Part shown: piece after piece, positions 4,794 through 37,907 of the stretch
Layout: each line of letters starts with the position of its first letter
Numbering within the stretch: position 1 is the stretch's first letter
Assembly: GCF_000197735.1 (NCBI RefSeq)
Contig: NC_014550.1
Location: forward strand, 1,488,001-1,552,000
DNA: 64,000 bases
Origin: Glutamicibacter arilaitensis Re117
Lineage (GTDB): Bacteria > Actinomycetota > Actinomycetes > Actinomycetales > Micrococcaceae
Direction of reading: 5' to 3'
The notes under the pieces: generated by a model
The model's input: only the letters and a program-made list of their open reading frames with translations
The model's database searches: none
Told to the model about the DNA's origin: nothing
Translations under genes and position numbers: made by a program

Positions 4794-6641
4794 CTACTTC
4801 AGGCTGAGATTTCCATACACGGTGAAGTACGGGAGAGAAATATTCTTCTGGCGGACCCCGAGCCTCAGCAAAATCGAAGATTGACCTGAGCCCATCCGCA
4901 CGTAAATATCCAGCGGGCCGTCAATCTGCCCGCTCTCAATTGCGGCAGCTGGAATGGCGAACGTCGCTTCGCCCGTAGAGCTGCTTGAAGGATCTAGCCG
5001 GAACACATGTTCAGAAGCAACCTCACCGCGGGGCGTGATTTCCAGTTGGATGCTATCCAAATCAAGATCGTCGGCATTCCAACCGATCCGTAGGTCTATG
5101 CCGCCATCGTCCTGGAACTCGATGCGTTTGGTTGTGGGTTTCAAAGTGGCAAGCACACCGAGAATCAGTCTGTCGTTGCGTACCCTCTTCAGCCATTGCG
5201 CCCAATTATTGAAGACAGCTTCTTCAGAATACGACGCGGACGCTGAGAAAGCTTTCGACGAAATTCTCGAACTCAAATTTTCATCGCTAAGCAATCGGAT
5301 GACGATGCCAACTAAGGCCTGCACATCGCCACGGGCAGAAAGGAACCCGGTTTCGCCGTGCTCGATTACATCACGTGGGCCGAAATTCACATCGTAGGCA
5401 ACAGGAATGCAACCATTGGCTTGTGCCTCTAATAATGCCAGGGGTTGACCTTCGAACGCGCTGCACAGAAGAAGGACATTAGCTCGTTGGAGATGTTCGC
5501 GCACATTATCTACGTGTCCGTGAAATTGAACTATAGGGTCCAAGCCCAATTCGCGAACCAACCGCTCAAGATTTTCGCGCTCAGGCCCCTCGCCCACAAT
5601 ATCCAACGAAACTGGCTGTCCAGATTTGGCGACCGCATGAACAATCCGGATAACATCTCCGACGCCTTTGGCTTCAGTCAACCGGCCAACGTGGATAACC
5701 TTTGAGAGATCGCGGAGAGATCGGTCGGGCAAGTTTCCGACTCCTCGTGAGGGATTGCTCAATACATGGGTTTTGCCGTCATCGCCGAAACGTCGGATAA
5801 AGGCGTCTTTCTGGGATTTCGTGAGAAACACCAGCCCATCCCAGTTGGAACGGGCATTGATTATCGGCAGGTGGGCTTTGGATAATTTCCCGGACAACGT
5901 GTCTTCGCCCGCAGCGACATGCGTGCTATGAAAGTTATAGATCTTGATAGCCAAGGGGTGCTGCCAGTTATTGAGAAACGCTGCAGCATACTTGCTGTCA
6001 ACGATAACGTCAGTAGTTTTCTCGCCCACAATAGTCGAAAGCCAATGGCGATACAGGCTAGCCGCCGTAGAAAACTCCTGGACGAATAAGTTGCCCCGTC
6101 GAAAAAGCTGCAACCGCCGTAGCGTTTTCGATTCATCCTTCGGATCCGGATAGCTGAAATCCACCAAATACTTGGTGCCGTCGCGGCGGAAATATTCGCG
6201 ACGATTCAACAACGAGTGGGAAGCCGATTTGTAGTCGCGGAAGAAGAGCGAATTGTCTCGCGTGCGATACGTTTCAGTTGGCTTGCCCCAAACAACGTCC
6301 GGTAACGGTGTCGGTTTAGTATCGTCGGTCATTCTCGCAGGTGCTTCATGATCGTAATATTCATGCAGGTTAACGATGGGGACTGCACTATGCAACCGTC
6401 CGGAAGAAAGTAGCGTTTCACTAATCTGTTCAAAGTTTGGTTCGGGTGCGAAGGTCACAACGGCGGACGGTACTCCTTGTTCATGGAATATTCCTGCGCG
6501 GTTTAAACACATGGCAGTCATGCCGCCGAAAGAATCCTTAACTTGCCACGTAACCATCAATGCGCGGCAAGCATTCTCGAGTCGATTCTTCGGCTCGCTA
6601 ATCAATTTAAAAGAGGTTCCGCCGATGGTAGGATGTGACAT
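4794..6641 (-). CDS. Family 4 glycosyltransferase, probable wall teichoic acid modification (TagE/TarM-like)
   Basis: The product has 615 residues from ATG at 6641. The N-terminal region has WQVKDSFGGMTAMCLNRA, typical of poly(glycerol-phosphate) glucosyltransferases. The C-terminal half is a GT-B fold with HVGRLTEAKG, then VGEGPERE, and an EX7E-type motif in FEGQPLALLEAQ. A further 100 or so residues follow that I cannot assign. The predicted role is cytoplasmic transfer of a sugar to a teichoic-acid chain, supported by the divergent CDP-glycerol glycerophosphotransferase at 8480. The IS481-like element abuts the start: the first base of the ATG is the first base of the IS. The frame stays open into the IS up to a TTG at 6722, so a 27-residue N-terminal extension is possible. 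The insertion separates the gene from its former upstream region. Confidence 0.82.
   Translation of the reverse strand: MSHPTIGGTSFKLISEPKNRLENACRALMVTWQVKDSFGGMTAMCLNRAGIFHEQGVPSAVVTFAPEPNFEQISETLLSSGRLHSAVPIVNLHEYYDHEAPARMTDDTKPTPLPDVVWGKPTETYRTRDNSLFFRDYKSASHSLLNRREYFRRDGTKYLVDFSYPDPKDESKTLRRLQLFRRGNLFVQEFSTAASLYRHWLSTIVGEKTTDVIVDSKYAAAFLNNWQHPLAIKIYNFHSTHVAAGEDTLSGKLSKAHLPIINARSNWDGLVFLTKSQKDAFIRRFGDDGKTHVLSNPSRGVGNLPDRSLRDLSKVIHVGRLTEAKGVGDVIRIVHAVAKSGQPVSLDIVGEGPERENLERLVRELGLDPIVQFHGHVDNVREHLQRANVLLLCSAFEGQPLALLEAQANGCIPVAYDVNFGPRDVIEHGETGFLSARGDVQALVGIVIRLLSDENLSSRISSKAFSASASYSEEAVFNNWAQWLKRVRNDRLILGVLATLKPTTKRIEFQDDGGIDLRIGWNADDLDLDSIQLEITPRGEVASEHVFRLDPSSSSTGEATFAIPAAAIESGQIDGPLDIYVRMGSGQSSILLRLGVRQKNISLPYFTVYGNLSLK
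6626..6640. repeat. Left 15-bp target-site duplication of IS481-like copy 1
   Basis: TGGTAGGATGTGACA immediately precedes the IS start at 6641. The right copy, TGGTAGAATGTGACA at 8363-8377, differs at one base. The pair defines the insertion point next to the glycosyltransferase start. Confidence 0.88.
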
Positions 6642-6648
6642 GTCCTCT

Positions 6649-6720
6649 CTCAGAACATCGCTTACACCCTGACTCACAACATCGCTTACAGGATGTATCA
6701 GCACATCGCTGACAGGTAGC
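6649..6720 (+). repeat. Left-end array: three 24-bp direct repeats, IS copy 1
   Basis: The units start at 6649, 6673 and 6697. Each contains a core close to ACATCGCTTACA, with the A of ACATCG at 6655, 6679 and 6703, exactly 24 bp apart. They follow an 8-bp tip (TGTCCTCT). They probably act as transposase-binding sites. Twenty-four bp is also eight codons, so a minus-strand frame reads through with a VSDV motif repeated every eight residues. Confidence 0.85.
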
Positions 6721-6771
6721 AAGACATGCTGGCAGGCCCCTTCTGGTCAGCGATCAATTTGATAATTAAAC

Positions 6772-8217
6772 GTGTCAAATTCATTATCGGCGTCGATACG
6801 CCGCCAAATCATCGAGTTCGATCCGGGCCTGCCAGACTCCTTGAGTATCTCGCAGTTCTGCAAGGAACTGGGAATCAGCAGACCCTCCTACTACAAAGTC
6901 AAAGAGCGATTCGTTGCCGAAGGGAACAAAGCACTCAACCCGCACTCCAGAGCCCCGAAAACAGACCGGCGCATCTACAGCGACCAAACCAAAACCACGG
7001 TCCTACGCATCCGCAAGCGACTGGCCAAGGACGGGTGGGACAACGGGCCCTTATCTATCTGGTTCGAAAGCCTTGATACTCAGGAGTTCGGTGAGCTACG
7101 CCCCTCGGTGGCCACGATCGGCAGGATCCTTGCCGAGGCCGGAGCTACCAAGCGAAACCCGCGCAAACGCCCCCGTAAATCATGGCTGCGCTTCGCCCGT
7201 TCGCATCCGATGGAAATGTGGCAGATCGACGGACTGGAATATCGATTGTTCGACCAGGACGCGACCAAGGCGATGATCTATCAGCTCATTGATGACGGCT
7301 CCCGATTCGACGTGGGTACGCGGTGCTTTGAGCAAATGGAGAACGCGCAAGATGCGATGGAAACGCTCAAGGCAGCGTTCGCGGAGTATGGGGTGCCGCA
7401 ACAACTTCTCAGCGACAATGGTGGTGCTTTCAATCTTTCTCGGCAGGGCCTGGTGAACCAGACTGAAATATTCTTGGCTAGCGTGGGCTGCGAAGCGATT
7501 ACGGGCCGGTTCAGTCATCCGCAAACGCAAGGCAAGAACGAACGCAGCCATAATACGTTGACCCGGTTCCTCGACGCGCATGCACCACATAACCTGGCGG
7601 AGCTTTCCACGTTGTTGGAGCAGTATCGGAATCACTATAACCACCGTCGGCGCCACCAGGCGCTGAAAGTGGGGCACACGTATCTGACGCCTGCTCAAGC
7701 GTGGGAAGCCGGTGATCATCGTGGTTCGGATGGCGTGGCCATCGATATTGCCAGGATACAGGCCAAAGCCCAGTCGTACTTGGACAAGGCTCTGGCCGTG
7801 AAAGCCGATTTGGTTCCGGAGGGCGTAGTGGATGATGGGCTTCAGGTGTTGGGACGTACGAAGGTTGAAAACTACACCGGTAGCCCCAGCGTACTGACGG
7901 ATCAACGCGATGATGTGATCCAGATTCGACGGACGAATCCGCAGATCTATTTTCGTGGCCGTGTTTTCAAGGTGCCAGCTCACCTGATCGGTGAATACCA
8001 GCTGGTCTTGAGCAAGGATGCTTATACGCTTTACAGCACTGTTGATGGTGAGCAATCACTGTCATTTCCGTTACCGGTCAGGCTGCATTCCAGTGCGCGT
8101 TTGGTGCCGTTGTGGCAGGTGTATGGAGCCCGGATCAGGGATCCGAAGCCGGCCTGGACTCAGAAGCGGATCGAGTATGAGGACATCTACTATTCGTCTG
8201 ACGTCGCCGTTTCCTAG
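6772..8217 (+). CDS. IS481-like DDE transposase, copy 1
   Basis: The product has 481 residues and starts with GTG. An N-terminal helix-turn-helix region (about residues 20-60, FCKELGISRPSYYKVKERF) precedes an rve integrase core with catalytic acidic residues in WQIDGLEY, LLSDNGGAF and PQTQGKNERSH. The region after about residue 340 is an extra C-terminal domain, probably beta-rich. At 481 residues it is longer than typical IS481 transposases (about 300-350). It differs from copy 2 by only a few residues near positions 371-376 and 421, so both copies are recent and probably functional. Confidence 0.9.
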   Translation: MSNSLSASIRRQIIEFDPGLPDSLSISQFCKELGISRPSYYKVKERFVAEGNKALNPHSRAPKTDRRIYSDQTKTTVLRIRKRLAKDGWDNGPLSIWFESLDTQEFGELRPSVATIGRILAEAGATKRNPRKRPRKSWLRFARSHPMEMWQIDGLEYRLFDQDATKAMIYQLIDDGSRFDVGTRCFEQMENAQDAMETLKAAFAEYGVPQQLLSDNGGAFNLSRQGLVNQTEIFLASVGCEAITGRFSHPQTQGKNERSHNTLTRFLDAHAPHNLAELSTLLEQYRNHYNHRRRHQALKVGHTYLTPAQAWEAGDHRGSDGVAIDIARIQAKAQSYLDKALAVKADLVPEGVVDDGLQVLGRTKVENYTGSPSVLTDQRDDVIQIRRTNPQIYFRGRVFKVPAHLIGEYQLVLSKDAYTLYSTVDGEQSLSFPLPVRLHSSARLVPLWQVYGARIRDPKPAWTQKRIEYEDIYYSSDVAVS

Positions 8218-8240
8218 CTAAGGAGATTCGTTGCGCACGG

Positions 8241-8362
8241 TGTCAGCGATGTTGTGAGTTTGGTTGTCAGCGATGTGCTGATGCCGCGTGTCTACGATGT
8301 CCTGAGTTTGGTTGTAAGCGATGTGGTGAGTTCGTGTGTAAACAAACTACCGAGTGATTACA
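8241..8362 (-). repeat. Right-end array: five 24-bp repeats, IS copy 1
   Basis: The units begin at 8241, 8265, 8289, 8313 and, in degenerate form, 8337. Each reads close to TGTAAGCGATGTGGTGAG, the inverse of the left-end units. The CGATGT cores are at 8247, 8271, 8295 and 8319, exactly 24 bp apart. The last unit is followed by an 8-bp tip, so both ends share the plan of tip plus first unit. They probably bind transposase. Confidence 0.85.
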
Positions 8363-8377
8363 TGGTAGAATGTGACA
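8363..8377. repeat. Right 15-bp target-site duplication of IS481-like copy 1
   Basis: TGGTAGAATGTGACA directly follows the element. It matches 14 of 15 bases of the left copy at 6626-6640. Confidence 0.88.
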
Positions 8378-36030: not shown

Positions 36031-36155
36031 GCGGGTGAGTTCCTAGCGGTGTCCTGGGTGAATGGGGTTTGCCTATAACTCTAGTTGGTTGCAAATGTTC
36101 ATCGGACGCCAGGTGGGGTAAAGCACGCAAAATCATCCCAACGGAGTACCCGTTA

Positions 36156-36170
36156 TTGCTCGGAACGCTG
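36156..36170. repeat. Left 15-bp target-site duplication of IS481-like copy 2
   Basis: TTGCTCGGAACGCTG directly precedes the element and is repeated exactly at 37893-37907. Confidence 0.95.
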
Positions 36171-36178
36171 TGTCCTCT

Positions 36179-36250
36179 CTCAGAACATCGCTTACACCCT
36201 GACTCACAACATCGCTTACAGGATGTATCAGCACATCGCTGACAGGTAGC
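36179..36250 (+). repeat. Left-end 24-bp repeat array, IS copy 2
   Basis: Three units with the same sequence as the array at 6649-6720 are kept at exactly 24-bp spacing after the 8-bp tip. Confidence 0.85.
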
Positions 36251-36301
36251 AAGACATGCTGGCAGGCCCCTTCTGGTCAGCGATCAATTTGATAATTAAA
36301 C

Positions 36302-37747
36302 GTGTCAAATTCATTATCGGCGTCGATACGCCGCCAAATCATCGAGTTCGATCCGGGCCTGCCAGACTCCTTGAGTATCTCGCAGTTCTGCAAGGAACTG
36401 GGAATCAGCAGACCCTCCTACTACAAAGTCAAAGAGCGATTCGTTGCCGAAGGGAACAAAGCACTCAACCCGCACTCCAGAGCCCCGAAAACAGACCGGC
36501 GCATCTACAGCGACCAAACCAAAACCACGGTCCTACGCATCCGCAAGCGACTGGCCAAGGACGGGTGGGACAACGGGCCCTTATCTATCTGGTTCGAAAG
36601 CCTTGATACTCAGGAGTTCGGTGAGCTACGCCCCTCGGTGGCCACGATCGGCAGGATCCTTGCCGAGGCCGGAGCTACCAAGCGAAACCCGCGCAAACGC
36701 CCCCGTAAATCATGGCTGCGCTTCGCCCGTTCGCATCCGATGGAAATGTGGCAGATCGACGGACTGGAATATCGATTGTTCGACCAGGACGCGACCAAGG
36801 CGATGATCTATCAGCTCATTGATGACGGCTCCCGATTCGACGTGGGTACGCGGTGCTTTGAGCAAATGGAGAACGCGCAAGATGCGATGGAAACGCTCAA
36901 GGCAGCGTTCGCGGAGTATGGGGTGCCGCAACAACTTCTCAGCGACAATGGTGGTGCTTTCAATCTTTCTCGGCAGGGCCTGGTGAACCAGACTGAAATA
37001 TTCTTGGCTAGCGTGGGCTGCGAAGCGATTACGGGCCGGTTCAGTCATCCGCAAACGCAAGGCAAGAACGAACGCAGCCATAATACGTTGACCCGGTTCC
37101 TCGACGCGCATGCACCACATAACCTGGCGGAGCTTTCCACGTTGTTGGAGCAGTATCGGAATCACTATAACCACCGTCGGCGCCACCAGGCGCTGAAAGT
37201 GGGGCACACGTATCTGACGCCTGCTCAAGCGTGGGAAGCCGGTGATCATCGTGGTTCGGATGGCGTGGCCATCGATATTGCCCGGATACAGGCCAAAGCC
37301 CAGTCGTACTTGGACAAGGCTCTGGCCGTGAAGGCCGATTTGGTTCCGGAGGGCGTAGTGGATGATGGGCTTCAGGTGTTGGGGCGTACGAAGGTTGAAA
37401 ACTACACCGGTAGCCCCCGCGTTCTGGCGGATCAACGCGATGATGTGATCCAGATTCGACGGACGAATCCGCAGATCTATTTTCGTGGCCGTGTTTTCAA
37501 GGTGCCAGCTCACCTGATCGGTGAATACCAGCTGGTCTTGAGCAAGGATGCTTATGCGCTTTACAGCACTGTTGATGGTGAGCAATCACTGTCATTTCCG
37601 TTACCGGTCAGGCTGCATTCCAGTGCGCGTTTGGTGCCGTTGTGGCAGGTGTATGGAGCCCGGATCAGGGATCCGAAGCCGGCCTGGACTCAGAAGCGGA
37701 TCGAGTATGAGGACATCTACTATTCGTCTGACGTCGCCGTTTCCTAG
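36302..37747 (+). CDS. IS481-like DDE transposase, copy 2
   Basis: The product has 481 residues and a GTG start. It has the same domain order as the copy at 6772: helix-turn-helix, rve core (WQIDGLEY, LLSDNGGAF, PQTQGKNERSH) and long C-terminal domain. Differences are confined to the C-terminal domain, for example SPRVLADQ in place of SPSVLTDQ, and AYALY in place of AYTLY. The frame is intact. Confidence 0.9.
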   Translation: MSNSLSASIRRQIIEFDPGLPDSLSISQFCKELGISRPSYYKVKERFVAEGNKALNPHSRAPKTDRRIYSDQTKTTVLRIRKRLAKDGWDNGPLSIWFESLDTQEFGELRPSVATIGRILAEAGATKRNPRKRPRKSWLRFARSHPMEMWQIDGLEYRLFDQDATKAMIYQLIDDGSRFDVGTRCFEQMENAQDAMETLKAAFAEYGVPQQLLSDNGGAFNLSRQGLVNQTEIFLASVGCEAITGRFSHPQTQGKNERSHNTLTRFLDAHAPHNLAELSTLLEQYRNHYNHRRRHQALKVGHTYLTPAQAWEAGDHRGSDGVAIDIARIQAKAQSYLDKALAVKADLVPEGVVDDGLQVLGRTKVENYTGSPRVLADQRDDVIQIRRTNPQIYFRGRVFKVPAHLIGEYQLVLSKDAYALYSTVDGEQSLSFPLPVRLHSSARLVPLWQVYGARIRDPKPAWTQKRIEYEDIYYSSDVAVS

Positions 37748-37770
37748 CTAAGGAGATTCGTTGCGCACGG

Positions 37771-37892
37771 TGTCAGCGATGTTGTGAGTTTGGTTGTCAG
37801 CGATGTGCTGATGCCGCGTGTCTACGATGTCCTGAGTTTGGTTGTAAGCGATGTGGTGAGTTCGTGTGTAAACAAACTACCGAGTGATTACA
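37771..37892 (-). repeat. Right-end 24-bp repeat array, IS copy 2
   Basis: Five units correspond to those at 8241-8362, with the same spacing and the same degenerate last unit before the ACA tip. Confidence 0.85.
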
Positions 37893-37907
37893 TTGCTCGG
37901 AACGCTG
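37893..37907. repeat. Right 15-bp target-site duplication of IS481-like copy 2
   Basis: TTGCTCGGAACGCTG is identical to the left copy at 36156-36170. Confidence 0.95.

Follow-up and report, generated by a model that had tools for sequence, protein, structure and literature searches.

The stretch analysed here (hereafter the window) comprises 64,000 nucleotides of the chromosome of Glutamicibacter arilaitensis Re117, a cheese-rind bacterium (contig NC_014550.1, positions 1,488,001 to 1,552,000). It carries two copies, A and B, of a compact insertion sequence (IS) with TGT...ACA tips and a single IS481-family transposase gene, hereafter the Re117 element. Both copies are located within the second IS cluster of the chromosome; a cluster at 1.47–1.72 Mbp is named in PMC2991359. 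Their length of 1722 bp and their positions agree with a preliminary description of the locus, which had also proposed that the element combines one gene with multi-site ends. This proposal is borne out: counted from either tip, base 9 is the first base of an 18-bp core of the type CTCAGAACATCGCTTACA, which recurs every 24 bp (Table 1).

Chance or simple repeats were rejected as the origin of these arrays by core counts, period shuffles and a register test. With up to two mismatches, ACATCGCTTACA matches 16 times in the window against 3.5 expected, a number reached by none of 100 shuffles, and 12 of the 16 matches fall inside the two element copies. Measured against dinucleotide shuffles, a period of 24 gave z = 7.1 at the left end and z = 8.2 at the right end, and the best period at either end was reached by 0/200 shuffles. 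For the fixed-register test, cores at 8+24k from the tip were scored against the element's own consensus with a threshold of 10/18. Successive left units matched the consensus at 17, 16, 15 and then 6 of 18 positions, and right units at 12, 16, 14, 15, 16 and then 6. The fourth left and the sixth right unit drop straight to background and, because the units beyond fall under the threshold, the earlier count of three left and five right cores is correct. The right unit previously noted as degenerate is the outermost one (12/18).

Table 1. Coordinates of the two element copies and their associated features in the window.
Feature	Positions	Strand	Basis
Element copy A, 1722 bp, TGT...ACA tips	6641..8362	+	sequence
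Element copy B, 1722 bp	36171..37892	+	sequence
Left target duplication, copy A, 15 bp, one mismatch to the right one	6626..6640	.	
Right target duplication, copy A, 15 bp	8363..8377	.	
Left target duplication, copy B, 15 bp, exact	36156..36170	.	
Right target duplication, copy B	37893..37907	.	
Left array, copy A, three 18-bp cores at 6649, 6673 and 6697 (24-bp register)	6649..6714	+	
Right array, copy A, five 18-bp inverted cores at 8241, 8265, 8289, 8313 and 8337; outermost degenerate	8241..8354	-	
Left array, copy B, three cores; ends identical to copy A, the copy register-tested	36179..36244	+	
Right array, copy B, five cores; end sequence identical to copy A	37771..37884	-	
Transposase gene, copy A, 481 aa, GTG start, IS481 family (NF033577)	6772..8217	+	open reading frame, model
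Transposase gene, copy B, 99% identical to copy A	36302..37747	+	
Target motif position, copy A, GTTCC (no TA), 10 bp outside the duplication	6616..6620	+	
Target motif, copy B, GTACC, 10 bp outside the duplication	36146..36150	+	

The array is a trait of the long-transposase clade. Relatives were fetched with the element protein and with a 38-sequence alignment, and the named loci among them are actinobacterial, save one weak match in a Chloroflexi bin (L109). They are sparse. Of 295 genomes sampled from the family, 14 contain one at E up to 1e-80, and of 396 genomes from the order 4 do so at 1e-95; the Re117 genome is included in both counts. At 35 loci, an end finder recognised clean duplications that measure at least 12 bp. 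Nineteen of these entered the register test, and the other 16 are copies of the same elements (L002-L005, L013, L014, L038, L041, L045, L070, L071, L075-L077, L079 and L084). The array count does not extend to the remaining L001-L110 loci (about two thirds); these are truncated or split, or lack a clean long duplication. The 18 long-transposase elements tested are distinct in sequence, with some close kin and four near-identical Corynebacterium types among them. All 18 keep terminal arrays, with at least three cores per end in the 24-bp register and an 8-bp tip offset, and the match to the core drops sharply to background after three to five units. Left and right cores number 3+3 in ten elements, 3+5 in three, 3+4 in two, 4+4 in two and 4+3 in one, so that the asymmetry seen by the preliminary description stands for the Re117 element (3+5) and falls as a trait of the clade. 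At 35 of the 36 ends the best period is 24 or 48 (z at least 4.2); the sole odd end is the right tip of L065, which was misplaced. Four clade loci recovered separately with the IS481 model (L133, L134, L136 and L137) have a best period of 24 at both ends.

The core itself is bipartite and drifts across the clade, from ACATCGCTTACA to GACTTTTTGGACA in Corynebacterium. In 15 of the 18 elements, cores share 76% identity within an element (308 pairs) and 54% between clades (4028 pairs), and the 6-bp linkers within an element share 52% (147 pairs). Cores drift together inside an element, which fits recognition by the element's own protein. It is very improbable that the 24-bp arrays are kept by a coding constraint (eight codons in an outward, PVSDVL-like frame) or are functionless tandem duplications. 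The outward left frame of copy A is indeed open into a neighbouring gene, a 642-aa open reading frame (ORF), and 24 is a multiple of 3; however, the arrays are inverted at the two ends, cores are conserved and linkers less so, the first core keeps a constant distance of 8 bp from the tip, and 15-bp relatives outside the clade have, by eye, frame-breaking spacings of 23–26 bp. We also regard as improbable the alternative that the internal repeats are operators, through which the transposase or a host regulator represses the promoter while only the terminal sites serve transposition. The left array does lie ahead of the start codon, in a leader of 131 bp. Yet the right array, which an operator role does not ask for, is located past the stop codon in the same register, and in 17 of the 18 elements, L088 being the exception, it is no shorter than the left array. 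This disfavours such a role; autoregulation by the same protein would be compatible with arrays that dock the transposase.

The Re117 genome contains five intact copies of the element (proteins 99–100% identical) and two copies cut in two, and these near-identical copies indicate that it has recently been active. The 15-bp target duplication reported earlier recurs in all seven own-genome copies with paired flanks; L016 is a further lone right end, without a partner. The duplication of copy B is TTGCTCGGAACGCTG on both sides, while that of copy A reads TGGTAGGATGTGACA and TGGTAGAATGTGACA, with 1 mismatch in 15. Twelve of the 18 clade elements have a 15-bp duplication, that of L065 being read by inspection, and six have one measured as 13–14 bp. 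A 29-bp duplication at L065 proved on inspection to be a host-repeat artefact, and the tip TGTTATGTCC gives the 15-bp GCGTTAGCTCCATTT. L133 has no direct duplication; its two flanks are inverted copies of each other.

A search with the NCBI IS481 model returned 30 further loci, three of them without a usable frame and many without clear ends; four are the clade members named above. Five canonical elements have clear ends and 6-bp duplications (L111, L113, L120, L127 and L129; 1071–1169 bp, CTAG in the duplication). Ranked without shuffles, 24 is not the best period in any of these five, and reaches third rank at one L113 end. Canonical elements share with the Re117 element the IS481 model, the TGT...ACA ends and, by eye, an 8-bp tip followed by a core of ~18 bp. 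They differ in having one site per end and a 6-bp nCTAGn duplication, neither of which occurs in the Re117 element. CTAG targeting in IS481 has been described for TnRErm46/ISRe46 (PMC6794481). An intermediate arrangement is found in L012-L014, L130, L132 and L138, which have 15-bp duplications and two to three cores per end, the first core 8 bp in (by eye). Their core spacings, also by eye, are 23, 25, 26 or 36 bp with no fixed 24, and L012 fails the fixed 24-bp register test. L012-L014 represent a second, distant IS481-type element of the Re117 genome itself (1593 bp, core spacing about 25–26 bp); a 17-bp duplication for L013 was rejected, inspection giving 15. C-terminal extensions are present in L012, L130 and L132. 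This irregular group shares the long duplication and multiple cores with the clade and differs from it in spacing. The 15 bp of the Re117 element falls inside the range printed for IS481 duplications, given as 2–15 bp with 6 bp typical and ~15 bp in "not a few" members (PMC10045372).

The transposase scores 243 bits on the NCBI IS481 model (cut-off 224), 33 bits on the IS21 model (cut-off 160) and 83.5 on the ISNCY model NF033594, far under its cut-off of 250. The TGT...ACA tips and the DDE core that IS481 membership requires are both present, and the catalytic residues D153, D215 and E257, assigned from the alignment, are invariant in 38 sequences. After the catalytic E motif the Re117-type protein continues for 228 residues, compared with ~60–80 residues from catalytic E to the end in six canonical proteins (L111, L116, L118, L119, L120 and L127). 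AlphaFold predicts the order helix-turn-helix (HTH)-HTH-RNaseH-linker-barrel-helix, so that the extra C-terminal domain of the preliminary description is a predicted beta-barrel. The predicted fold is most like that of IS21 IstA. In the structural comparison (VIA listing), IstA chain 8b4h aligned over model residues 4–449, whereas TnsB chains aligned over residues 2–317 only, ending before the barrel. Tree 1 (49 rows, including misread frames of L113 and L129) supports the long clade at 90/99, and its node joining all 15-bp IS481 elements, with the Re117 protein among them, at 88/97. Tree 2, which was built without L113, L121, L124, L128, L129 and L131 and has an added IS21 outgroup on a very long branch, supports the long clade at 80/99. 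The suggestion that the element forms its own branch, intermediate between IS481 and the Tn7-like transposases, finds no support in the IS481 model score, in the grouping in tree 1 (tree 2 being silent on it) or in the extent of the IstA and TnsB alignments.

The observed arrays, their register, their conservation with co-drift, the duplications, the target motifs described below and the predicted domains are best explained, with good confidence, by an actinobacterial IS481 branch that turned a single terminal site into rigid transposase-docking arrays. Each 18-bp core would most likely dock one protomer through its two N-terminal HTH domains, and the bound protomers would pair both ends via RNase H and C-terminal barrel contacts, as in IstA, TnsB and MuA. 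Terminal protomers would cut and join, and internal ones would build the paired complex. Within the 8-bp tips, cutting is expected adjacent to CA-3', and joining would be to target phosphates 15 bp apart; compared with a stagger of 5 bp, this would add one helical turn to the distance between the active sites. The complex would prefer a target motif in a set position, namely RTAY outside the duplication in the Re117 type and nTAG inside it in Corynebacterium.

Several points weigh against this explanation. Protein binding, the oligomer, cleavage and the role of the arrays in end pairing are inferred, and the repeats could also serve autoregulation. The model has a pTM (predicted template modelling score) of only 0.57. 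Its alignment to 8b4h has a root-mean-square deviation of 19.7 Å because domain orientations differ, and a second IstA chain, 8q4d, aligned over 4–323 only, ending before the barrel. Tree 1 had misread rows, and the basal order in tree 2, including the 15-bp node, is without resolution. The duplications of L009, L031, L043, L049, L057 and L110 were measured at 13–14 bp; these may be 15 bp with a shared or changed base, and are kept as measured. The link between the C-terminal domain and multi-site ends has an exception in L138, which has a 15-bp duplication and several cores, yet its frame ends 74 residues past the E motif; the gene may be broken. The array, the barrel and the long duplication co-occur and probably arose in few events, the order of cause and effect not being separable.

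Target choice leaves a signature of its own. A TA is found at -24/-23 from the left tip in 6/7 own-genome copies, within a consensus RTAY one turn outside the duplication, and copy A (GTTCC) is the only one of the seven without it. Taking the own type and three relatives together, 8/10 have the TA. The own-type count was matched by none of 20,000 random-offset controls, each of which was scored at its best column within 60 bases. Among 14 Corynebacterium duplications, 13 have a TA at bases 5–6 or the mirror position 10–11 (nTAG) against 0/5,000 controls; here the control used the fixed position only. For both types the motif positions were picked after viewing the sites. The Corynebacterium count is without L065, which fits by eye, and L088 (GCAGGTGGGTCTGCA), which does not fit; with both it becomes 14/16. 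Such motifs are direct handles on target choice. Insertion of the own copies into one genome-wide repeat, TCCGGCnAGTC, was considered and rejected: this pattern matches 9 times, with the L003 site alone accounting for three, and its reverse matches 5 times. Insertion into repetitive extragenic palindromic (REP) sequences has been reported for a P. fluorescens element of the IS481 family, the inverted repeats of which are 49 bp long (PMC11708052). As a separate observation, L043 and L110 are located, by eye, inside alike ~56-bp near-perfect palindromes (CTACCTGACGGCGGC...) in two different actinobacterial families, and this palindrome is perhaps mobile.

Some copies lie in the ends of IS21-family elements. 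L009, L025, L049 and L093 are directly upstream of an istA-like gene; against the IS21 model, the IstA used as reference obtains 205 bits. An uninterrupted IS21 terminus from the genome of L025 (L154) served as a reference and was aligned with 118 flanks. Measured against 3,000 random stretches, 21 of the flanks, from 15 loci, reached at least the 99th percentile, and 12 flanks at least the 99.9th. These 21 of 118 are a non-random sample, because some flanks were picked as arm-like, L033 and L036 share an arm, and the reference comes from the L025 genome. The IS21-like flanks include those of two own-genome copies, L006 and L003 (the latter only just reaching the 99th percentile), that of L133 from G. 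protophormiae and the arms of L034 and L064, and none belongs to a Corynebacterium or Brevibacterium copy. L002, L004, L005 and L008 are not IS21-like in their flanks, yet have the TA. The part of the IS21-family elements in which these clade members sit is terminal and probably binds the transposase.

Seven copies (L020, L022, L029, L033, L036, L037 and L064) are bounded by outer IS21-like tips and 5–8-bp repeats. The repeats were picked out among many pairs of ends and are weak alone, and the outer tips, which match at 6–8 of 8 positions, support them. L033 and L036 share a genome but differ in their repeats, of 7 and 5 bp respectively, and their arms look swapped by eye; this unit probably moved whole, as though its core had been flipped. 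In 8/16 subgroup copies, from at least three genera, an inverted copy of the element's own right end (68–70/70 bp) abuts the left tip, to the left of TGTCC (L022, L023, L033, L036, L037, L048, L061 and L069). Among the other subgroup copies, L064 matches at 47/70 and seven at 12–22/70, including L009, L025, L034, L049 and L054, which also sit in IS21 ends. A bolder reading, which we put forward tentatively and consider rather unlikely as a whole, is that the clade is an ATPase-free, one-protein counterpart of Tn7. Its arrays would wrap the ends into a transposase assembly of larger size, which would set the 15-bp stagger and read the motif one turn outside; the clade would home on IS21 ends via such motifs and, nested in several genomes between two IS21 ends with a copied right end, could be carried by the IS21 transposase. 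If true, this would be an IS parasitising the ends of another IS.

Two further features concern the surroundings of own-genome copies. L007 and L008 (C3, about 2.016–2.020 Mb) are the halves of a split copy with an IS21-model gene, L159, between them. In the window, a minus-strand gene at 4794-6722, the product of which we take to be glycosyltransferase-like, is open into the left array of copy A, and the N-terminus of this product is a string of PVSDVL-like repeats derived from the array. The element may already have an ISAar name; PMC2991359 names ISAar15-18 and refers to a Table S6.

The design of these ends invites comparison with more complex transposons. Tn7 makes a 5-bp duplication and has the partners TnsA and TnsC. 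At its ends, TnsB sites of ~22 bp are arrayed behind an 8-bp TGT/ACA tip, and it is active with two right ends and inactive with two left ends (PMC11406308). The 8-bp TGT/ACA tip with a site array, as well as the catalytic and HTH folds of TnsB, are common to Tn7 and the Re117 element. The latter differs in having one gene, regular non-overlapping 24-bp sites and a 15-bp duplication. No TnsA or TnsC partner gene was found in the element, which the 481-aa gene fills, and no IstB-like second gene was seen; the other ORFs inside the element overlap the transposase gene and were not homology-searched. On present evidence, there is no ATPase in the system.

IS21 ends carry the repeats L1/L2 and R1/R2, 23 bp apart, and are paired by a tetramer with HTH tandems and barrels (PMC10122671). 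The HTH-HTH-RNaseH-barrel order of IstA is predicted likewise for the Re117 transposase, but the element has a 15-bp duplication and more sites per end, and fails the IS21 model. The IS1202 family, with ISAjo2, is described as having a large, barrel-modelled transposase, TGT/ACA ends and a second copy of the inner repeat per end, with one extra site 7–10 bp from the terminal repeat and duplications of 3–5, 16–28 or 0 bp (PMC10132070). The extra sites of the Re117 clade number two to four, at exactly 24 bp. Membership of the Re117 element in this family, which is already described with Tn7-like ends, would account for the tips, large transposase, extra sites and long duplications held in common (PMC10132070), and in PMC10045372 IS1202 branches within the tree of IS481. 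We nevertheless consider such membership doubtful to a high degree. The protein passes the IS481 model and is far under the ISNCY cut-off, the latter being an indirect indication; the residue seven past the catalytic E is T264 in place of the IS1202 Q, although some aligned relatives do have Q.

Long IS481 duplications and extra sites in IS1202 and IS21 are thus already in print, while the 24-bp arrays appear undescribed, no description of them having been found in the open-licence PubMed Central literature. As far as its sequence allows, the Re117 element is best regarded as an IS481 element with an apparently undescribed end design, and this evidence does not make it a relative of Tn7 by descent. 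A design with multiple docking sites, usually linked with more complex transposons, would here occur in a simple one. Together with their relatives, the IS481 elements form a natural series from one site with a 6-bp duplication, through two to three irregular sites with 15 bp, to rigid arrays with 15 bp. The origin of discrete duplications of ~4, 15 and 25 bp is posed as a question in PMC10045372. With this series, one small protein would suffice to test what the number of sites does and how such discrete duplications arise.

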